A stretch of DNA of 64,000 nt from Akanthomyces muscarius (taxonomy: Eukaryota > Ascomycota > Sordariomycetes > Hypocreales > Cordycipitaceae): assembly GCF_028009165.1 (NCBI RefSeq), contig NC_079242.1, forward strand, positions 248,001 to 312,000, in the 5' to 3' direction. The position numbers and the translations under genes were made by a program. The notes beneath the pieces are model-generated. The model did not search any database, was not told the origin of the DNA, and was given only the letters and a program-made list of their open reading frames with translations. The first letter of the stretch is position 1; the number at the start of each line of letters is the position of its first letter. Positions 2,816 through 58,839 of this stretch are shown in pieces.

Positions 2816-4969
2816 GTTTTATTGCCAATGCTACTCAAGTATGCAGAACTAGAAAGAGACCACAGCTAGCAGAGGATGAGAGGAACAAGGACAGCAGACA
2901 GAAAGCGGGCACATGCAGAGGTAAATATGGCTGCGGCGTCCCCATCAGCGATTGATCTGATAAGATCAATATTTTCCCACATTCCCAAGTCGTCGTCGCA
3001 AACATTATCCCCAGTGGCGTCCACCTTCACCAGCCATTTCTCCATACGTTTTTTATCCCTCGGGTCCAATCTAAATGAGGCTCTGGCTCCCGCAAACCGA
3101 GGCCAACAATTGCCTGTTTGTGCCTTCTCGCACTTTTTTCGGGGGTTTGAGGGTGGTGTGGTGCCTGTGAATGCCTGTCCAACACCCTAGGCCGACGCGG
3201 AGCAACGACACTAACGAAAAGAACCCAGGGTTGCATGGTGGAGAAGGAACGAAAGAGATGATATCCACCTGGCAGGGTAATATTACTCTTGCTGCATGTA
3301 AGAGCGAGTCCGTGGGAAGAATGGCGCAGACGGAAAAGAGGAATAGAGTTTCGGTCAAAGCCTGGTGGTTCATCGCGTGATCAATAGTAAGCTTAAGCTG
3401 TAGGCGTTGCTCTCGTTCTTGTCGTGGCCAGCGCGCCGGAAAGCGAGATGATCTCGTACTACCGTCTTCCGCCCAGAGATCAGCCCGGAATCTTTACCGC
3501 CAGCCGAAGCTCCGAAGATTGCCTCCCTTGGCCGACGCGAGACAGGGCTCCTGCTCACGCCACTCAGCACGAAAATGGCAAAAACCGAATACTTGTTCCC
3601 GGAAACAAATATTGGCACAGCCACGCCGCTGTTGGCCATGGTTAGGTAACTGATTGGATTGATTTGATTTGATTGATTGATGGCTGATTATTACCGTCGG
3701 ACGCAGAAATGCCTCCGCCATCGCTCCACCATCCAACGGCCTTTTGCCCGCCAAGAAGAGCACATCACGCTGGGCGCTGTGGGAAGTTGGGAAAGAAGCC
3801 CCTCTTAACAATCCACAAGCCCCCATAAGTTGAGCCGAGTTCCGCGTTCAGAGGAGGCAGTGCTCGCCGTCTGTGGGCACAGGGTCGCGGCGGCGATCGG
3901 GTCCGTTCTCCCAGCAATTCTTTCTCGTACGAAAACCTCAGCGCCTTGCAAGAAACGGCCTATCATTGGCGTGGACGTCTTTGCGGGAATACAGAGGGAC
4001 GCACGAGAGGAGAGTGAAGTATCCTTGAAGTGAGCTTGGGCAAACAGCGCCGCGGAAATGAATAAATTGACCGAGACGCCCTACATCTAACTTGCAAGCC
4101 TTTGTCGGTAAAGACCACACCACCAAGACGAAAAACCAGGCTGGCGGTGGCGGGTCTCGCTGCACGCGAACGCGCCACTGGGATGGCCGACTGCAATGAA
4201 CAAGGCAAGCATATCGGCAATGCAAGCATCAAGCATAATAATACAAGTCATTTGATACTTTTCCATTTCGGAAGCGTTCTACTAGACCCCCCTCCCCCGT
4301 GCGCCCGTCGTAAAGATATCGGAAGCTGAAGAGAGTCAAATGTGGTCCTCGCTCGGCTCGCCGGCCCTGATCAGGAAGTTGCTTCTTTTCAATATGAGTA
4401 TGGATGGGGAAGGGTTCGGCCAACTTGGTTCCAGATCCCTGGGTTCCCCGCTGCCACGTTTTCCACACTGAACCGATAATCGCTTTACAGCAGAGCTGGG
4501 CAAGATTTCTGCCAATGAGCAGAAGAAAAGGAACAGATTTTGCTAGCCTAAGCTCATTTTCTAGCCTGGCCAAGTTTCATAATAGATGGCAGCTACATAT
4601 GCTAATGGCGCTGTTGCTATCCGGTATGAAGTGGCCGTAGGATAATAGAAAACGACAAGGTTCAACATCTACGCAATGCATGAGAGATCGGCTACAAGCG
4701 TCAAGACATCTTGCAGGTACGGAATAAGCCCTGCGCTATTAAGAGCTGAGATGTTTCTGAGGAGGATTCATTTTCGCCCAAGAACGGCCAATGCTAGGAT
4801 GATCAATAAAGAAAGAAGAAGAAAAGAACTTTTAGCTTCATCACCGCCAATCAATCCTGTATTTTGAGCTGTAACGCACTATCCGGGAACAGCAGCCAAA
4901 AGAAAGAGAGGGAGACATCTTGCACTCAGAACAAAGCAGGCTACATATGATTGATGCTCACCGCGTGGC
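2816..4969. other. Intergenic, no gene seen
   Basis: About 2.1 kb between two minus-strand genes. Open frames here are short, lack family motifs and do not join through plausible introns. The only structure noticed is a short GATT-rich run at 3651-3682. Confidence 0.6.
3651..3682. repeat. GATT-type microsatellite
   Basis: Imperfect run of TGATT/GATTT units in intergenic DNA. It is a simple repeat with no evident function. Confidence 0.7.
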
Positions 4970-48096: not shown

Positions 48097-50064
48097 TTAA
48101 AGTAGCTTAATTTCTTCTAATGCTACACCGTTGTTCTGTAGCACGTCAATGGTGACGGCTTGGTACATTTCGGAGATGACCACGCTGTCTCCCGCACGCA
48201 CATGAGCTCCAGCCTCAGTGGCCGAATAGAGTCTCTCGATGCGCGGGTCGGATCGAAAAGGTCCGCCGCCCAGTATGCCAACGTATCCATAGCCGCCCTC
48301 CAGCGTGAGCCGCACTTCTCTCAGCCCCCAAATCGGACCCAGGAGTGCTTCGCCCGCCATGTTCGAAGCCACGAGCCCCGAGCCAATGACGCGAAATTTC
48401 GTCCCAGAGAAATGTCGAAGTATGATCGAATATCGGCAACCAGGCAGTGCAAAAAGCTGGTCACCTGCTTGCGCTGAGTTGATCACTGATCCAACACTAC
48501 CAGGCGAAGTCTTGATGAAGCACCGGCCCGTGCATCTCTCGCGAATGCACCTGGCAACCAGCGGGCTAATTTGAAGGGCAGATTGCTCCTTCATATCGTC
48601 TCCACCTTGTTCTCGGTCACTGGGTTGTAAGCTGCGTAAGAAGTGAAGAGCTTCCGCGATAGGCACGAGGCCATTAGCAGGGTCTACATCAAGTGGCCAG
48701 GTGGTTTCCAAGATCCCTTCCGGAAACAGGGCGAATGCAACTTCGGTCAAGGCATTCAAGTCCAGGACGAAATCTTTGGCTATCCACCTCAGCAGTTTCT
48801 GAACTGCCACGCAGACATCTTTGTCACTTGATGCTAGAGACAAGCCTAGATCAATTACGTCGGTAATGTCGGCGAATTTGCGACCCCAGCAAATTAGTTC
48901 ACCAGGACAATCTTGCCGGTACCGATTGCGCAGCAGACCTGAACTATGTCCCATTAAATTGGCATGCCCGACTCGTCTCGCGTGCCAATTTGGTACCCAG
49001 GACGGCAAGCCGCTCATGCCATTTGGCCATTCGCACGATCCAATCAAGTCTACGCCATCTTGCAGTTGGCGTATGCACACCTCCTCGTAAAGAACCGCTG
49101 CGGTGAACGAGGGTCGGTAGTTTGGGACCACGTCCAAGTTTGGTCGGCAAATCCTAAGTGCCGCGTAGATGCGATCCCGCGGGTCATGACAGTCACGATA
49201 GCGGATGGTTTCCATGGCTGACCCAAAGTCCAAAGCAAGATAAAACTTGGCCATCAGGAAGATGAGGATGTTGCCCCGCCGAGCCGACCAATTCCGCCGC
49301 AAAATTGCCGAATAAGAGTCATTATCAACGAAACAGCTTTGGTAGACAATGATGGCCGTCTGCAGGTGAACAAACGGCACGGATTGCGCGCCCCATTGAA
49401 TGACGGCAGTATCTGGATTGGCGAGACCGAGTTCCTGTAGCGTCCAGACACGGTCAAACCATGTATTAGACACGCCAAGGACGAGACTCTCTAAATCCTT
49501 CTCTGTGAAAGCCAGGTCCTTTGGCGGCGAGTCTCCAGTAGTCCAGGATAAAAGATCCTTGCGAAAGTTGTATCGGGCCATTTTTGCGAGTTTACTCAAA
49601 AGGGCAATACATGCATCGGTTCCACCAACTGCTGGCCCGAACCAGATCACCACGCGCTCAGCGAGCTCATAAATGGATCCCATGTGCGCTACCTGATGGC
49701 TCTTTTCGCATTCATCTTGTTGATTAATACATATCGCATCAATCCACAGAGTACGGACTGCCGATTCGCTCCGCAAGTGCTGCAGCGCGGATCGCAGATT
49801 TTCGCGGACAGTCAAATATCGCGGTGGCGCATTCGCCGGATCGCCGTTGTTCTTGACACAGATTCTCGGTTCATCTGGTAGCAATGGTCCCCAGACGTAG
49901 GACAGCGCCTCATATTTGGGCGAGTTGGATCCATTTCCCCAAATAGAAACAGACTCCAGCTCGACTTCAATGCTGTCGGCGAAAGCACCGGGTAACAGAT
50001 GCAGCAGTCGGGATGCGAAACAATTCGAGTTGGCTGCTAGCGGGAGGTGTGCATATGGAAGCAT
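48097..50064 (-). CDS. HET-domain (heterokaryon incompatibility) protein
   Basis: Intronless, 655 residues. The three HET-domain blocks are present in order: YEALSYVWG (about 51-59), TLWIDAICINQ (about 105-115) and VWTLQELGLA (about 205-215). The N-terminus YAHLPLAANSN...RLLHLLPG is typical of this class. The long C-terminal region lacks NACHT, ankyrin or WD repeats. HET proteins trigger cell death on non-self recognition in characterised cases; members of this large family mostly have no tested role. The ATG at 50064 is used; the frame extends further upstream only through a GTG. It neighbours a kinase relic, consistent with an accessory, fast-evolving region. Confidence 0.9.
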   Translation of the reverse strand: MLPYAHLPLAANSNCFASRLLHLLPGAFADSIEVELESVSIWGNGSNSPKYEALSYVWGPLLPDEPRICVKNNGDPANAPPRYLTVRENLRSALQHLRSESAVRTLWIDAICINQQDECEKSHQVAHMGSIYELAERVVIWFGPAVGGTDACIALLSKLAKMARYNFRKDLLSWTTGDSPPKDLAFTEKDLESLVLGVSNTWFDRVWTLQELGLANPDTAVIQWGAQSVPFVHLQTAIIVYQSCFVDNDSYSAILRRNWSARRGNILIFLMAKFYLALDFGSAMETIRYRDCHDPRDRIYAALRICRPNLDVVPNYRPSFTAAVLYEEVCIRQLQDGVDLIGSCEWPNGMSGLPSWVPNWHARRVGHANLMGHSSGLLRNRYRQDCPGELICWGRKFADITDVIDLGLSLASSDKDVCVAVQKLLRWIAKDFVLDLNALTEVAFALFPEGILETTWPLDVDPANGLVPIAEALHFLRSLQPSDREQGGDDMKEQSALQISPLVARCIRERCTGRCFIKTSPGSVGSVINSAQAGDQLFALPGCRYSIILRHFSGTKFRVIGSGLVASNMAGEALLGPIWGLREVRLTLEGGYGYVGILGGGPFRSDPRIERLYSATEAGAHVRAGDSVVISEMYQAVTIDVLQNNGVALEEIKLL

Positions 50065-50311
50065 GGTAATATTCTTGGCGTGGGCAATTGGAAACAAAAT
50101 GATTGAGCCTTTCTCGAGGGAATGTTGCACAACGTACTTGGTATTTATGAGTGCGGCGTAATTCTGCTGATGAGTAATAGGCTCAGCCTCATTTATCAGT
50201 GATGCCTCGGCTTAAAGGCGGCTTTTGTAGGTTGCGTTGTTTTGTCGACTTCAGCTCTCTTCATCACTATAGCCCCAGTCCCCTCATCGACGCTAGTTGC
50301 CCGTCAACGGC

Positions 50312-50843
50312 ATGAGATCGCTCCGGATCCCATCCCGTCCTTGGCGAGCACTTATACCACCTAACCCTTCAAAAAGCGGCGCCCATGTCGCCGAACTGTC
50401 GCCTACCAAGCTTTGCTCCTTCAGCTCAAGCGCAGCTATACCGGAAAAGGCACCATCGCAACGCTGCGAGGAATATGACTGGATTGAGGGTTTTGAGTAT
50501 GTTGAGAGATACGAAACTGGTGGTTATCACCCGGTGATGGTTGGGGACATCCGGAGCAAGCGATACCAGGTCGTTGACAAACTTGGTTATGGAGGCTATT
50601 CTACAGTTTGGCTGACGCGGGAATGCAGCAAGGGACATATGTCGCGCTCAAGATTGGGGTTGCAAATTCGCGGTTGCACGAGACCATCGTGTTGAAAAAG
50701 CTTTCTGCATACAATTGTTGCGATGCATGCTTTCGTACGATCCGCTACAACGTCCTACCGCCGACGAGGTGTTTGGGTCTGATTGGGTAGTGAAATGGGC
50801 AATGAATGACTTTGAGCGGAGCTGCAGCCGAGAGGAGAAATAA
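50312..50843 (+). pseudogene. SRPK-like protein kinase relic, internally deleted
   Basis: Two ends of an SR-protein-kinase-type gene with the middle missing. The first part has YETGGYHPVMVGDI then RYQVVDKLGYGGYSTVWLTRE, which is the SRPK N-terminal signature and glycine loop. A frameshift near 50620 then moves the match to TYVALKIGVANS with the ATP-binding Lys. From 50727 the sequence reads MLSYDPLQRPTADEVF...WVVKWA and stops at 50841-50843, which is the C-terminal end of such kinases. The HRD, DFG and APE regions, some 250 residues or more, are absent. It cannot encode an active kinase. Transcription is possible, since the frame starts at an ATG. Confidence 0.8.
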
Positions 50844-50924: not shown

Positions 50925-50940
50925 CGGGTACTCGTACCCG
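50925..50940. promoter_or_regulatory. Palindromic operator 1 (CGGGTAC-TC-GTACCCG)
   Basis: Perfect 7-bp inverted arms with a 2-bp spacer, 165 bp before the ATG of the GAF gene. CGG-containing inverted repeats are the usual targets of Zn2Cys6 dimers; the nearby regulator at 56354-58839 is the obvious candidate. Confidence 0.8.
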
Positions 50941-51104
50941 ACAGGTGTCACACTCCGGTTTCTTGGGCTGGGATTCAAACATTTATTATTTAAGTATTGA
51001 CAAGTTCCTGGTATAAACATCTCTCTCTTGGCCAAGTCTCTTGAGACGCACAGGCTCAGACTCTGTTCTGTAGCTCCTCAGACTCCCGATCCCTGAACCT
51101 CAAT

Positions 51105-51695
51105 ATGTCGACATCCCCGCAACAAAGCAGTCGTGCCGAACAACACTTAACGTCACTGGCTCAGTTAGCTGCGAAATTGCACGCAAACAGCAACGATGCG
51201 GATCTTTGGCGTGCGCTCGACCGAACTCTAGACGAAGTCTTCGGACACGCTCTATTCACCGTCCTGGCCTTCACCAAGCAATCTGGCGCTACAAGGCTCT
51301 ACAGCACAAACACCAACTTGCACCCACTGGGAACAAGAAACAAATCGCCACCTGGCAATCATGAAAGAGTTCCTATCGGCAATGCACCTCCTCCGGCCGA
51401 CCGCGCTGCATGGGTGCAGCAGGTTTTGGTAGACGGTCAGATTTGGCGTGGGCAGGTGCGCGAGGATTTGAAGGCGGCATTCGAAGATTGGGAACAACTT
51501 TGGGAAGCAGACTTGGGGTCGGTTATGAACATTCCGATCCGTCTGAGTGGCTCCACGATAGGATCGCTCAACATTCTTGATGAGGAGCACAGGTACGACG
51601 CAGCTGAGTTTGAGCTGGGCATTCTGGTAGCACAATTGGTGGCAGCATTCGTTAACCGAGTAGCCAATGAGGCTGCAAAGAAAAAGACCATGTGA
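51105..51695 (+). CDS. GAF-domain protein
   Basis: Intronless, 196 residues, soluble. A GAF-type domain covers about residues 10-190: TSLAQLAAKLHANSNDADLW, a central RVPIGNAPPPADRAAWVQQVL, then MNIPIRLSGSTIGSLNILDEEHRYDAAE, which is the canonical closing strand-helix of GAF sensors. It is a stand-alone GAF protein of the type more common in bacteria, with no kinase, cyclase or methionine-sulfoxide-reductase partner domain. It carries one operator copy in its promoter and is convergent with the permease gene, so it probably belongs to the same regulon. It might bind the pathway's small molecule, but this is inference. Transfer from bacteria is possible and untested. Confidence 0.8.
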   Translation: MSTSPQQSSRAEQHLTSLAQLAAKLHANSNDADLWRALDRTLDEVFGHALFTVLAFTKQSGATRLYSTNTNLHPLGTRNKSPPGNHERVPIGNAPPPADRAAWVQQVLVDGQIWRGQVREDLKAAFEDWEQLWEADLGSVMNIPIRLSGSTIGSLNILDEEHRYDAAEFELGILVAQLVAAFVNRVANEAAKKKTM

Positions 51696-51860
51696 CGGCA
51701 GTTTTCGCTAGCTAACTAGTGACACTAAAATGACTTGATTTTCTGTGGCTGGCACGGACATCGTCTCTTCACTACCTTTAAAATAACTTCTGAAAAGTAA
51801 AGTCTGAACTGCAAATAGAACAATGAACCTAATAGCACATTTTTCCCATGTATATACTTC

Positions 51861-53806
51861 CTACAGAGAGTATCGGATGTGCTTGTTCTTCCAATCAGTT
51901 TCGTCGGCCACGCCTTGGCTTACAACCTCCTCAACAGCTAGCCCGGCCGAGTGGGCCTCGGTACCAAACTCTCGGTCGCGTTTCTTGTTCCAGAAAGCCA
52001 TGAGCTGTCTCATGGCTAGAACAATGGTGATGTTCAGAACAAAGCACGCAATCATGATGTTAAATGCGGTCTGGAAAGTGTCAGCATGACTTCAAAGAGT
52101 CCTTTGTGGGTAACATAGCAGGAAAACGTAGACTGACCTTGTAGCCCGGTGCTTCGTGCGGCAGAAAGGTAAGAGGGCCAATGATGTACCCTGTGCAGAA
52201 GCCGACGAAAAGCAATCCGCTTACTGTCGCTTTTTTTGTATGCCCTGTGATGTTGCTGGACACGAGACTAAGGATAGTAGGGAAGGCACTCGCATAGGCG
52301 CTGATCAGCCACAGCCCTCCGAGGCGGCTCAACTTTTCCGACTCTGGAAGCAGCTTGACCATAAGTGCACCTGCCAGGGAAATAAGATTGAGTAAAGCTA
52401 TTGACACGCATCGCGCGTTTTTGAAAGAGATCGACACGACCACGGTGAGGATGACAAAGAACAAGAGGAAGCCGCCTTGCGACATGGTGAGAAGCTGTGC
52501 CTGCAAGGTGCTATAGCCAAAACTTTTCAAGACAACACTTCCGAACTGCAAATGCACACTCGTTAGCTCTTCTTTTACACGTAGGGATGTGTTTGAACGG
52601 TGGCACATACCGCGGTCAGACCACCACCGGGAAGAGTGGTGAAAACACAGAGCAGGAAGAACAACCAGGATCGAGGGTCTACCAATGCTTCCTTCATCTG
52701 CTCGTTGTCCCATTTTCTGGTTTCGGTCGAGTGCCGTGCACCTTGCACACGGGCGAAAGCCAACTTTCTTTCCCTCTCATTCAGGAACCATGCGGTTTGA
52801 GGGTTATTCGGCAAAAGCCACCAGATAACCAGGCCCCAAATGAATGTGGCAGCTCCGAAAATAAGGAACAGAAACTGGCTCGGTAAGTTAGTTACGGACT
52901 GAGTCATTATCAACTGGAATGCTTCCCACGCAGCTTGACCTACCTGCCAGCTTTTGATCGAACTCTTGATGTGGGACATGGCATATGCAAGGATACCACC
53001 GAAGACATAGGCTACACTGGCTCCTCCGTACCACAGACCATGGCGTAGAGCATGTTCGGATGGCTTGTACCACATCGACGTGATGATTGTGAAACCAGGG
53101 TTGATTGCAGCTTCGAAAGCCCCCAAAAGAATTCGCAAAGCCGCAAGACTTCCAAAGTCATGGCCAGCGGCCATGGCCATTTGTATGCCCGCCCAGATAA
53201 GTCTATACGAGGCAAGCCAAATTAGCATTCCAAAATTTCCTATTCGGTGCGGCGTTGTTCCGAGGGGTACGCGTACACCGTTAACACCACAACTTTTGCC
53301 ACCGAGAACCTGACCAGCAGGAGCGAAGACAGAGGGCTCGCTACAAGAAATCCCACGTAGAAGAAGCTAGAAACCCAGGAGTATTGTGTTCCTACGAGTT
53401 TCTGTCGCAATGCGATTGTCAGTCATCGACATCGCTTGTCAAAACAGTGAGCTGCACTTACAGTGTCCGTAATTATACCCATGATCGCGGTGTAACCAAG
53501 AGATGTCTTGTCGAGGTATTGAAGGAGATAAAGGATGAACATGAGGGGCATCAAACTGTCGCGTTGTTAGTCTCAAGGACGGAGGTAAAGGCCTCTGCGG
53601 ATGTCTTCATTTCATTTGGAAGGGTGAAACTTTATGCAGTGGTAGCCAATAACTTACTGCAAGTCAATCTTCCAGACCAGCTTCTTCTCTTCTTCGGGAG
53701 TCATGGCCAGGAGCGAGCCTTCTCCTCCGGTACCGGCTTGATCAGTTGAGTAGGAAATCGAGGCCTTGGCCTCGACCATGGAGTTTTTCTCCTCGTTGGA
53801 AGACAT
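51861..53806 (-). CDS. Dal5-like MFS permease (allantoate/anion-cation symporter family)
   Basis: Importer of organic anions such as ureidosuccinate, nicotinate, dipeptides or carboxylates in characterised family members. Seven exons: 53806-53658, 53555-53462, 53401-53277, 53202-52944, 52874-52611, 52545-52138 and 52070-51861, giving 502 residues with intact frame. Family blocks are LMPLMFILYLLQYLDKTSLGY (helix 1), LLGAFEAAINPGFTIITSMWYKPSEHALR (split here: LLGAFEAAINPGF and TSMWYKPSEHALR) and SSNITGHTKKATVSG. About 12 helices. All six introns have consensus sites, several with CTAAC branch points. It is divergent from the amidohydrolase gene across a 713-bp region with three operator palindromes, suggesting co-induction by the Zn2Cys6 regulator. 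Confidence 0.92.
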
Positions 53807-54044
53807 GGAGAATCTCAAATGTCTGGCTTTGATGCCGGAGAGTTGCGAAGATGCTGGACCAGCGTGGGAGTTGCCTTTTTCTTTATACAAGACCTGGCCC
53901 CCCTTCAGAAGAAGAATCGGCTTGCGAGGCGTTTTTGTTGCCCAATAAAGTCGAAGTTGCGTATCTCAGAACTCTAAGATACCCACGATCTAGACCCCTA
54001 CGTGGTTTTCCACCCTCTGCTCAAAAACCTGGGGGAGCGGATCA

Positions 54045-54060
54045 CGGGTACTTGTACCCG
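54045..54060. promoter_or_regulatory. Palindromic operator 2 (CGGGTAC-TT-GTACCCG)
   Basis: Perfect copy of the 16-bp palindrome, 239 bp upstream of the permease ATG. Confidence 0.85.
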
Positions 54061-54109
54061 CTGGGATCCTCTCGTTGGCGATAGCATCAATCTGGGGTAA
54101 TCCACACGC

Positions 54110-54125
54110 CGGGTACAAGTACCCG
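54110..54125. promoter_or_regulatory. Palindromic operator 3 (CGGGTAC-AA-GTACCCG)
   Basis: Perfect copy centred 65 bp from operator 2. Confidence 0.85.
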
Positions 54126-54234
54126 AGCGCCGAAATGCTCAGCTTTCAGCCACTTCCCCGAATTTTACGTTCATTCGAGTCATGGGCAAGACGAATGATC
54201 CGGTTTTGGGACTGATAAGCTCCGTCAAACTAGT

Positions 54235-54250
54235 CGGGTACGAGTACCCG
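54235..54250. promoter_or_regulatory. Palindromic operator 4 (CGGGTAC-GA-GTACCCG)
   Basis: Perfect copy centred 125 bp from operator 3 and about 270 bp upstream of the amidohydrolase ATG. Confidence 0.85.
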
Positions 54251-54519: not shown

Positions 54520-55863
54520 ATGACGGCAAAAACGAGACCCTCCGTGTTGTCAAATGAGGTTACCATTCCTTGGACGCTTCCTCCTCCGCCGAGATATATA
54601 CTGACGGGCGCCAATCTCATTGACCCAGTCCAAGGCAAGGTGCTGAGAAATGCGACAGTCCATCTTCATGGCGGCGTCGTGAAGTCTGTCAATGGCGATG
54701 CTAGTGAATGGGAGAGCGATTCGTCCGCGATCAAGATCGATCTGGCGGGGAAGTTCGTGTGCCCTGGCCTGATCGACTGCCATGTTCACCTGGTGGCAGT
54801 TCCCTCAGAGATGGGACTACAAGAGATGCAGGGTATGAACACGTCTGCTTCACTGTTGCGCCAACCCCAGGTATGCAGGTCCATGCTGGAGAGGGGATTC
54901 ACAACCGTGAGGGATTGTGGAGGTGCCCTGTATCCATTGAAACAGGCGATTGAGGAGAATGTGCATCCAGGACCACGACTATTCATTGCCGGTCACGCAT
55001 TATCCCAGACGGGCGGTCACGCAGACATGCGGGGGATCTCGGATGAGCACGAATGTTGCGGCGGAGCAACGCAGGCCGTGGGGCGGGTGATTGATGGCGT
55101 GCCTGACTGTTTAAAGTACACCAGAGAGGAGCTTCGCCAGGGAGCGGATTTCATCAAGATCATGGGTGGCGGAGGCGTCGCTAGTCCGACGGACCGCATC
55201 GAAAACATTCAGTTTTCAGACGAGGAAATTCGAGCCATCGTCACTGTCGCGACAAATGCAGGCACCTACGTGACCACGCATGCCTACACACCCCAGGCTA
55301 TTCAGCAAGCCCTGAAGCAAGGTGTGATGGGGGTTGAGCACGGCAATCTGATTGATGAAAAGACTGCGAAGCTCATGGCTGAGAAGGGGGCATTCCTTAC
55401 GCCTACCCTCATCACTTACGCCACAATGGCAAAGTTTGAGGGTTTCCTCCCGCCAGCCTCCGCAAAGAAGAACAAGGAGGTGCTGGAGAAGGGACTTCAC
55501 GCCATCAAAATTGCCGCCGACGCCGGTGTGACCATTTGCTTCGGCACGGATCTGCTTGGCAAGCTGCACTTCGCACAGTCCCGAGAGTTTGGTCTGCGCA
55601 GCCAGGTTCAGAGTTCCCTGGAGATCCTGCGGAGCGCGACCATCAACGCTGCTCGTATGCTCCGACAGGACAAGTTCCTGGGCCAGGTCTCTCCGGACTT
55701 CGCGGCTGACTTGTTGATCCTGAACGAGAACCCCCTGGAAGACATCAAGATCCTGGACGAGCCGGAGAAGCACGTGCTGGCAACAATCAAGGCTGGGCGC
55801 GTCCACGCATCGAGGTGGTCAAAAATGGCGACTGATTTGCACCGAGTTGACAACATTGCTTAG
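54520..55863 (+). CDS. Metal-dependent amidohydrolase, ochratoxinase/imidazolonepropionase-like
   Basis: Hydrolase of the amidohydrolase superfamily with a binuclear metal site. Intronless from the ATG at 54520, 447 residues. Visible metal ligands: His88 and His90 in CHVH, carbamylated Lys213 in FIKIMGGGG, His254 in TTHAYTP, His274 in VEHGN and Asp344 in FGTDLLG. The Lys-His-His-Asp spacing (41, 20, 70) is close to that of fungal ochratoxinase and bacterial relatives that cleave amide bonds of N-acyl amino acids or dipeptides. No signal peptide, so cytosolic; the Dal5-like permease would supply substrate. The frame continues upstream of this ATG, but that part is leader-like. The natural substrate is unknown. 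Confidence 0.9.
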   Translation: MTAKTRPSVLSNEVTIPWTLPPPPRYILTGANLIDPVQGKVLRNATVHLHGGVVKSVNGDASEWESDSSAIKIDLAGKFVCPGLIDCHVHLVAVPSEMGLQEMQGMNTSASLLRQPQVCRSMLERGFTTVRDCGGALYPLKQAIEENVHPGPRLFIAGHALSQTGGHADMRGISDEHECCGGATQAVGRVIDGVPDCLKYTREELRQGADFIKIMGGGGVASPTDRIENIQFSDEEIRAIVTVATNAGTYVTTHAYTPQAIQQALKQGVMGVEHGNLIDEKTAKLMAEKGAFLTPTLITYATMAKFEGFLPPASAKKNKEVLEKGLHAIKIAADAGVTICFGTDLLGKLHFAQSREFGLRSQVQSSLEILRSATINAARMLRQDKFLGQVSPDFAADLLILNENPLEDIKILDEPEKHVLATIKAGRVHASRWSKMATDLHRVDNIA

Positions 55864-56353: not shown

Positions 56354-58839
56354 ATGAGCAGACTGCCCGAGTACACCATGCCTTTCCCACCCGCACGCCC
56401 ATCAAAGCGATACCGCCCGCACGTGCCTTTGGACAGACGCAAGAGGGCTGTACAAGCATGTATCTCCTGCCGAGATGGAAAGAAGAAGTGCGTTTTAACC
56501 GCAGTAAATCAGTGTCAAAATTGCACTCTTGCCGGCCAGACTTGCACTTTTAAACCGCTTCCCAAACCGCGCGAGGGCGGTCCTTCGCGGGATTCGCCAA
56601 AAGGCAACACGTCAGTTTCCGTCCCGTAGCCATCGAATGCTTGCGATACCTGCATCAGAAGTCCGTTCGCTAACCTGTCAACGGGTAGCCCGGATTGGGA
56701 GACAGTCGCGATGAACGTCTCTCGGAGCTTCCACGAAAGATTTCCTAGGAACAACGTAGATGCCAAGCAATTCTCAGTCATCTCACAGCTCTTTCAGGAG
56801 GCTGTCCATAAAAGCCAGCACGGGTTCGTGGCTGAGGACAGGAATTATGGCGGGGAGTCATCCACTTCTTTCCGCCAGGTCTCTGTACCTGTGGTCAACA
56901 ACGAGCCTCAGACCACTGGCTCATCAGCTATCGCAGCAATTGGTACGTATGGATAGCTCTGCAGATGTACCCCTTTCGTTAAAGTCGCGAATCAGAGAAC
57001 ACACCTTCGGCATCCCACGCCAGCTTTCTGGAGGCGATTTCCGATACAATCTCGCCGGTCAACGTCAGGCGCCACGATGTAAGTAGTTTTCCGGTGAAGT
57101 GAGAGCTCAAGGTTCGTTCTAAGAAGTTCCGGCTGACTTCTCTCCAAAGAATCATCCCCAATTAGACAGCCTCGCCACGGAGGAGACCGCATTAATGCTA
57201 GACACGGTTCTCGGCCACCTTCCGCCTTACGAGGATGCCCAGGTTCTTGTCGACGCGTTCTTCACATTTGTCGAGTCCAACTGGTACTATTTTGATGAGC
57301 AGTGGTTCCGGGACCTTCTCATGGAGGTTTATCGGAGCAGAGCTGCTGCGTCGCAGCCGAAGCAATGCACCATCATATGTCTTGTTTTCCTCGTGCTAGC
57401 TCTTGGGAGCTCTTTTAAGCACCTTTCCAAACCGGCCAGGTTGCTCGTTACCGATCGCGAAATTCCAGGCAGTGTCTCCTTCGCGCAAGCGATGAAACTG
57501 ATCCAGCAGGTAATCGCTGCGAACACCGTTGAAAGTACGATGTGCTGTCTTTTGATATCATTGTATCTTCTTGCAACCGAGGAAATCTCTCACCATCACA
57601 TATACCTGGGACTGGCCTTGAATCTAGCAGTTGGCCAATCGCTGCATCGTGAGGGGATACGCAACGACGAATCGCCTAGAGAGCGCGAGATGAAAGTCCG
57701 ACTGTTCTGGACCATCTATAGTATTGAACGGTGAGACTAGCAGAGAATAGATCGGGTGTTCTTGATACTAATCCCGCATTTAGTCAGACTTCTTATATAA
57801 TGGGGCTGCCAACGATACTGCGACTCGACGACATCACCGTCTCCTTGCCGCAAAAGAGACAAGATCTCGATAAAGACGGTTTACACCGTGTAGATCGACT
57901 TGTCGCATACACTAAGTTGACCATAGTGCTGGACGAGATTACCGCTGCTGGGTATGTGGTAGATTGGTGTTCTAATTTGGAATGACACTGCTGACATGGG
58001 TTCATAGCCCCATTGAACAAAGCTCTTCGACATATAACTGGGCTTGCTCCAAGCTAGAAACATCGAGGCAGTCGATTCCAGCCTATTTGCTCACAGCCCA
58101 GGAGTCATCATTTAGACCAAACGCGCATCTCAACATCTTGTATAACATGATTTGGGTGACTATTGGCCGCGGAGCATTGTTGCGTCTCGTTCGTGGACGC
58201 CTTCATCCTTTGGCTACTGATACTATAGGGTTAGGGGATGATGGAATGCAACTCCGATCTGAGGAATTAGCACAACGATGTACAAAGGCAGCCACGACGG
58301 TCACTGAGTGGATCGTCCAGTTACAGAGCCGTAACCTTCTGGCCAGGTTCTCCTTTACGGACTTGCATACATGCAGCTCAGCTGTCATTGTTCTGCTTTT
58401 GAACGCTTTTCTTTGTCCAGCTGATCACCAACTATCAGCTGTTACCCGTGGCATAGATGCCCTACACTTCATGGCCGACGGCAGCACGTTGGCGATGAAT
58501 GCGCTGCGGCTTGTTGAACGCCTGCAACAGGGGATTTATCAAGCTACTGGGCTTGCTAACACAGAAACCATTCCTAGCCAGGAGCCATCACTTGTGCCGC
58601 CCCTTGGTCCGCACTTCTCACATGACAGTACGCTTGGAGTTGACCAGGACACTTTGTCCGGTGTGCCTCTGAATGACAGTATCGGCAATAACGCCACCTC
58701 CGACGTTACGCCACCTGATTTAAGTCTATTCACGGATCTGGAGCCATTTTTTCTTGAACATTCTGATCAAGATCTCAACTTGTTCGGATTTGACGGCTTT
58801 GGATCCACGTTTGACCTAGACAGTTTAATGCAAAACTGA
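56354..58839 (+). CDS. Zn2Cys6 transcription factor with fungal-specific regulatory domain
   Basis: Nuclear transcription factor, probable pathway-specific activator of the adjoining GAF, permease and amidohydrolase genes. Six exons: 56354-56610, 56689-56942, 56996-57078, 57150-57730, 57784-57951 and 58008-58839; 724 residues in one intact frame. The zinc cluster is near residues 36-70: ACISCRDGKKKC...CQNCTLAGQTC, with basic flanks (RRKRAVQ). The fungal_trans region spans about 200-450 (LVDAFFTFVESNWYYFDEQWF, LGLALNLAVGQSLHREG, RLFWTIYSIER, then MGLPTILRLDDI after splicing). The last 100 residues are acidic, with DLSLFTDLEPFF and FGFDGFGSTFDLDS, a likely activation domain. Another in-frame ATG lies eight codons downstream. 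Confidence 0.9.

Follow-up and report, generated by a model that had tools for sequence, protein, structure and literature searches.

What is the function of a 16-bp palindrome that recurs beside a few neighboring genes of a fungus, and which protein reads it? The question is raised by a stretch of 64,000 nucleotides from Akanthomyces muscarius, an insect-killing member of the Hypocreales (NC_079242.1, positions 248,001 to 312,000), herein called the window, which is C2:248001-312000 in the A. muscarius assembly scanned (36,193,312 bases in 12 contigs). The palindrome, CGGGTACNNGTACCCG, stands before a gene for a GAF-domain protein and between the divergent genes of an MFS permease and an amidohydrolase, and a gene for a Zn2Cys6 regulator belongs to the same cluster. 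Filamentous fungi encode hundreds of Zn2Cys6 regulators, and most of these, to our knowledge, have no known site or target. In this cluster, the site, its targets, and its regulator can be proposed together from the sequence, with all four exact genomic copies located at the proposed targets. The palindrome signal is real and far above chance, and within the A. muscarius genome it is almost unique to this one gene cluster. It is likely that the palindrome serves as the operator of a small pathway-specific regulon, in which a homodimer of the cluster-encoded Zn2Cys6 protein would bind the sites and coordinate the genes for uptake and hydrolysis.

Occurrence of the palindrome in the genome

Four exact copies of CGGGTACNNGTACCCG were found in the whole 36.2-Mb assembly, all within a single 3.3-kb stretch, while the count expected genome-wide from base composition is 0.195. 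The first-pass annotation of the window had reported four perfect copies, at 50925, 54045, 54110, and 54235. All of them were found there, with perfect 7-bp arms in every case. It had also noticed by eye no further copy with a 2-bp spacer, and this was upheld by the window search, which returned zero sites beyond the four even when two mismatches were allowed. In 100 dinucleotide-preserving shuffles of the window, there was no exact match, and the mean was 0.12 when up to two mismatches were allowed. The genome scan did not find a palindrome that is frequent and unlinked to these genes, the outcome by which the annotation had proposed that its regulon could be refuted; each exact copy adjoins them.

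The spacing of the arms was also varied. When the arms were allowed to lie 0-24 bases apart, six places were found in the genome (15 for the reversed control), comprising the four window sites, one place with a 0-bp spacer, and one with a 22-bp spacer. The latter two spacings, each seen once and at an unrelated place, were rejected; the 2-bp spacer alone recurs. With up to two mismatches, the genome holds 130 places (4 exact, 12 with one mismatch, and 114 with two), compared with 402 for the reversed control pattern. This indicates that the looser motif is not enriched and that only the exact sites carry the signal.

The centers of the four sites were described initially as variable, and the forms TC, TT, AA, and GA were indeed seen. 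However, the center is not free. Since TC/GA and TT/AA are the same sequence on opposite strands, the centers in a common orientation are TC, TT, TT, and TC, and CGGGTACTYGTACCCG describes all four sites. Each of them contains inverted CGG triplets with 10 bp between them (CGG-N10-CCG). The ATGs of the permease and the amidohydrolase are separated by 713 bp, and three of the sites lie inside this interval. The distances of operators 2, 3, and 4, as numbered in Table 1, are 238, 303, and 428 bases from the permease ATG and 459, 394, and 269 bases from the amidohydrolase ATG. The 15 bases on each side of each site were compared by eye and show no resemblance, which makes a copied element unlikely.

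Linkage of the cluster genes in other fungi

Linkage was read from the locus tags and contigs of homologous proteins, among which 16 homologues of the regulator and 15 of the GAF protein were found. Regulator and amidohydrolase homologues are adjacent in Fusarium xylarioides (H9Q72_011819/011820) and Fonsecaea erecta (AYL99_09556/09557). In Penicillium pancosmium, one contig of 16,007 bp carries homologues of the regulator, the GAF protein, and the amidohydrolase. These three genomes, in which a regulator homologue lies beside an amidohydrolase homologue, support the connection with the adjacent Zn2Cys6 gene that the first-pass annotation had made.

The GAF and amidohydrolase homologues are adjacent in two Chaetothyriales (DV738_g2185/g2184 and DV735_g2168/g2167) and are separated by one gene in F. 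lateritium (ACHAPJ_006645 and ACHAPJ_006643). Both are carried on a metagenomic contig of 5,227 bp, and in Paecilomyces lecythidis their linkage was read from the equal length of the longest contig. In Talaromyces proteolyticus, the GAF and regulator homologues share a contig of 1,558,046 bp. Viral contigs were also searched for relatives, and none were found. The regulator homologue from Beauveria bassiana (P0123) bears the name "putative transporter" in its source, and its start is out of frame with the zinc cluster.

Traces of the palindrome in related amidohydrolases

Two metagenomic amidohydrolases, P0009 and P0019 (81% and 74% identical, respectively), have long N-termini that resemble a translated promoter. 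They alone, among the 120 amidohydrolases listed, have an N-terminal extension longer than 40 residues ahead of the conserved PRY motif. The translation of CGGGTACNNGTACCCG is RV[LPHQR]VP in frame 1 and GYxYP in frame 2; the extension of P0009 reads ...TDRVQVPVRK... and that of P0019 reads ...GCGYVYPTC.... The three frame patterns are absent from the other 149 of the 151 proteins fetched (66,185 residues in total). The open frames of the window served as a positive control; there the patterns occur 21 times, every time at one of the four sites. A Markov null built from the window gave 50 matches per 5.78 million residues, and the chance for both extensions is about 4e-7. The palindrome inferred for P0019 would start 292 nt before the ATG and that for P0009 126 nt before it; in the window, operator 4 starts 285 nt upstream of the amidohydrolase ATG, close to the place inferred for P0019. 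Conservation of the palindrome in relatives is supported only indirectly, through the two extensions.

Genes of the cluster

The sites and genes are listed in Table 1.

Table 1 Putative operators and genes of the cluster, with a neighboring gene; positions are those of the window.
Feature	Position	Strand	Description
Operator 1, CGGGTACTCGTACCCG	50925..50940	.	Exact match, center TC; 164 bp upstream of GAF ATG
Operator 2, CGGGTACTTGTACCCG	54045..54060	.	Exact match, center TT; divergent permease/amidohydrolase promoter
Operator 3, CGGGTACAAGTACCCG	54110..54125	.	Center AA; operator 2 sequence on the opposite strand
Operator 4, CGGGTACGAGTACCCG	54235..54250	.	Center GA; operator 1 sequence on the opposite strand
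GAF-domain gene	51105..51695	+	196 aa, intronless; GAF_2 28.5 bits, just under the 28.6 cutoff
MFS permease, anion:cation symporter type	51861..53806	-	502 aa, 7 exons, splice model, intact
Amidohydrolase, prolidase-like (COG1228 type)	54520..55863	+	447 aa, intronless; Amidohydro_1 154 bits
Zn2Cys6 regulator, proposed binder of the four operators	56354..58839	+	734 aa, 6 exons, splice model
HET-domain (heterokaryon incompatibility) gene	48097-50130	-	Left of the sites, beside the cluster

The best solved relatives of the amidohydrolase are 3mkv (334 bits) and 3feq (325 bits). Ochratoxinase (4c5y) was considered as the closest solved relative and rejected, since its match of 156 bits is weaker than that of the prolidase 3mkv. 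Residues H88, H90, K213, H254, H274, and D344 are invariant in 12 fungal sequences and were aligned with 3mkv and 3feq; the HxH, Lys, His, His, and Asp of this set are presumably the metal ligands. The score against NF051886, the Xaa-Pro dipeptidase equivalog, was 242 bits and did not reach the cutoff of 500. Judged from these relatives, the enzyme could release proline or another amino acid. The public model of this gene, LMH87_003207 (P0001, 422 aa), is 25 residues shorter. The missing stretch, VCRSMLERGFTTVRDCGGALYPLKQ, has an open reading frame in the DNA and includes positions invariant in relatives; its absence probably reflects a false intron in the annotation.

The regulator shows a Zn_clus match of 24.2 bits (cutoff 21) scored on a single gene piece, and the motif CX2CX6CX5-12CX2CX6-8C is present as CISCRDGKKKCVLTAVNQCQNCTLAGQTC. 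The Fungal_trans middle homology region reached 49.6 bits (cutoff 23) on one exon. Immediately N-terminal of the zinc cluster lies a basic segment, RPHVPLDRRKRAVQAC, which is alike in several homologues.

For the permease, MFS_1 was matched with 56.9 bits (cutoff 33.4), scored on a single exon. Its best NCBIfam match was TIGR00893 with 190.7 bits and an E value of 4e-56, which is below the cutoff of 395; anion:cation symporter permeases of this kind are, we assume, those labelled TC 2.A.1.14. A pseudogene was considered because of an apparent frame break and rejected, since an intron that begins with GTACGC and ends with GTATAG removes the break and leaves the model open.

The GAF gene is present in a single copy in the A. 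muscarius genome. Free methionine-R-sulfoxide reductase, a GAF enzyme, depends on catalytic cysteines. The GAF protein of the window has no cysteine at all, and none occurs among the invariant columns of 13 sequences, so this identity was ruled out. Its predicted structure is GAF-like with moderate confidence (mean pLDDT 69.4). The best matches of the model were GAF sensor domains of a general kind, from sigma-54 regulators and histidine kinases, and they do not name a ligand.

Directly left of operator 1, at 50480-50659, lies an apparently truncated remnant of the N-terminus of an SRPK-like protein kinase. A 60-residue stretch of it matches SRPK2 (E 5e-11), with no Pfam match.

Pairing of GAF and amidohydrolase genes in bacteria

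Prokaryote genomes were scanned with the alignment of the fungal amidohydrolases, and the best 80 of 579 confirmed loci, all prokaryotic by title, were kept. A homologue of the GAF protein (27-34% identical) was found in 17 of these 80 loci. In 16 of the 17, at most 204 bp separate it from the amidohydrolase match, and both are on the same strand; in the remaining locus (L074), the distance is 1,477 bp. By title, 13 of the GAF-bearing loci are from Bradyrhizobium, and the others are from Paracidovorax, SAR116, Amycolatopsis, and Allokutzneria. In locus L031, the GAF protein scores 28.5 bits against GAF_2, and genes for LysR and AraC regulators lie close by. The SAR116 locus L023 carries the amidohydrolase, GAF, and MFS genes in a row, with hydantoinase A/B genes on the other strand (L023 2180-8966). 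By analogy, these hydantoinases hint at an N-acyl amino acid derived from a hydantoin or a lactam as the possible substrate.

The GAF gene looks odd in a catabolic set. Its position beside the amidohydrolase in bacteria suggests that it would be an old companion of this enzyme family. This partnership across kingdoms is the less expected part of the finding. It is possible, though doubtful, that the GAF protein is a dedicated partner of the amidohydrolase, as a ligand-sensing or activity-controlling subunit kept across bacteria and fungi, and that the fungal pair has come under a new dimeric operator, CGGGTACTYGTACCCG, read by a Zn2Cys6 activator from the cluster that also controls a paralogous amidohydrolase. 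If so, the pair would represent an undescribed catabolic module shared between kingdoms.

Related sites and paralogues elsewhere in the genome

Five further amidohydrolase matches are present in the A. muscarius genome, the closest of which, at C1:6952990, is 55% identical. A one-mismatch site, CGCGTACGGGTACCCG, is located at C1:6952750, 140 bp upstream of the ATG of this closest paralogue and in an intergenic gap of 366 bp. By chance, a given gene would have such a site within 500 bp with a probability of about 2e-4, and the corresponding probability for any of the five paralogues is about 8e-4. Among the 12 one-mismatch sites, this one alone precedes a related gene. In the fetched locus L103, before the amidohydrolase paralogue, the one-mismatch palindrome (4750-4765) shares its first bases with a CGG-N10-CCG sequence, CGGGCTTGCTACCCCG (4736-4751).

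Five of 11 one-mismatch loci (L007, L009, L012, L014, and L015) fall in stop-free stretches of at least 345 codons. A domain scan covered nine proteins at seven of the 12 one-mismatch places and one at the place with the 22-bp spacer, with L007, L009, L011, and L014 left out. In this set, Pfam gave a P-type ATPase, a glycosyl hydrolase, and a Ybp2-like protein, along with weak matches to a histidine phosphatase and a phosphorylase, none of which is related.

Proposed mechanism and alternative explanations

In the proposed mechanism, the Zn2Cys6 protein would bind CGGGTACTYGTACCCG as a homodimer, with each zinc cluster reading a terminal CGG of the CGG-N10-CCG arrangement. Contacts reaching into the spacer would read the GTAC inside each arm, and the basic segment next to the zinc cluster is a candidate for making them. 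The three operators in the divergent promoter would switch on the permease and the amidohydrolase jointly, and the single operator upstream of the GAF gene would switch on the third part. The permease would import an organic anion, such as a dipeptide, an N-acyl amino acid, or a similar amide, which the amidohydrolase would then cut. The regulator would probably sense the imported anion, or its product, as the inducer. The gene set suggests that an imported amide substrate activates the genes, as opposed to repression. The weaker variant site on contig C1 may draw the second amidohydrolase into the regulon.

Several observations weigh against this proposal. The motif with up to two mismatches lacks enrichment in the genome. 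The promoter of the regulator itself was scanned and CGG-N10-CCG was not found, so autoregulation via the palindrome is not seen. Only one CGG triplet survives the mismatch in CGCGTACGGGTACCCG, and no site at up to three mismatches is present in the stretches fetched for the remaining four paralogues. Linkage is visible for just three of the 16 regulator homologues and six of the 15 GAF homologues, the rest being not judgeable from the listing. The cases of P0009 and P0019 rest on peptide sequence and assume both a codon choice and an unspliced extension, and the center in P0019 would be GT, not TY. No match named Beauveria is among the 15 GAF homologues, though regulator and amidohydrolase matches with this name are found. 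Together with the named Fusarium, in which F. lateritium alone has a GAF homologue among these 15, this suggests that the GAF gene may be dispensable in the cluster.

The strongest alternative is that the palindrome does act as an operator, but for a factor whose gene lies elsewhere, either another Zn2Cys6 protein or a repressor, and that the adjacent regulator acts elsewhere or indirectly. The regulator promoter without a site and the one-mismatch site in trans on contig C1 would both fit this explanation. However, targets at other places would be expected of a global factor, whereas all four exact copies are here, and in three other genomes the regulator homologues are linked to those of the amidohydrolase. 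We regard a different factor as unlikely. A second alternative is that the palindromes do not bind protein and are left over from a small repeat element, or have a structural nature and spread by local duplication. The tight clustering of four copies with identical arms would be expected from such an element, but the 15 bases on either flank show no shared sequence by eye, no other exact copy occurs in the genome, and peptide traces of the palindrome stand before orthologous genes in two other fungi; this origin is very improbable. Chance is excluded statistically for practical purposes by four copies within 3.3 kb against the fraction of one expected in 36.2 Mb and by the shuffles without an exact match.

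The Zn2Cys6 homodimer encoded in the cluster thus remains the preferred reader of the palindrome. If this is true, the cluster would offer an uncomplicated example of a regulator that is encoded beside its targets and has an almost unique operator. It would also provide a handle on the GAF protein that is found with this amidohydrolase family in fungi as well as in bacteria.

Comparison with known systems

Among the literature matches listed, no title or abstract describes the palindrome or the cluster, and the matches to CGGGTAC/GTACCCG are single or few occurrences. Pathway-specific Zn2Cys6 regulons are already known as a class, and the A. muscarius cluster adds a further case to it.

The closest parallel in site geometry is Put3, the activator of proline utilization in Saccharomyces cerevisiae. 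According to the available text of PMC5729217, Put3 binds CGG(N10)CCG and makes additional contacts with the spacer that separates the half-sites, which Gal4 and Ppr1 do not. The first-pass annotation had placed the palindrome with the CGG inverted repeats and had not recognized the exact site. The inverted repeat was confirmed, but the site is less foreign than it had appeared, since its geometry is that of Put3 as described there. Contacts of the Put3 type in the spacer could explain the invariant GTAC and the 7-bp arms. The two systems share the Zn2Cys6 class and the same spacing and orientation of the CGG triplets. They differ in that the A. muscarius site has a perfectly palindromic GTAC in both arms and that its proposed regulator sits in a transporter-hydrolase cluster. 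A search of solved structures with the first exon of the regulator alone returned LAC9 (E 0.11) and an activator of the ethanol regulon (E 0.2), and no Put3 chain.

A second parallel is FUR1 of Trichoderma reesei, also of the Hypocreales, for which the available part of PMC12370193 gives the site CCGACGG and a core regulon of 42 genes. As far as that text goes, FUR1 is likewise a fungal regulator with a defined short site upstream of the core target genes of a metabolic regulon. In contrast to it, the A. muscarius palindrome is a different site, and its proposed regulon has three genes plus possibly one more.

On the side of the enzyme, the prolidases Sgx9260b (3MKV) and Sgx9260c (3FEQ/3N2C) of peptidase family M38 hydrolyse Xaa-Pro dipeptides and N-acyl-prolines, as stated in the accessible text of PMC11511702. 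They are the top solved relatives of the A. muscarius amidohydrolase, which keeps the usual metal-ligand positions. The latter differs in being fungal, in lying in a regulated cluster, and in scoring under the NF051886 cutoff (242 versus 500). The bacterial loci, finally, share with A. muscarius the same adjacent pair of amidohydrolase and GAF genes, to which L023 adds an MFS gene as in the fungal cluster. They differ in their neighbors, which in the loci tested are the LysR and AraC regulators (L031) or hydantoinase A/B (L023), with no Zn2Cys6 protein.

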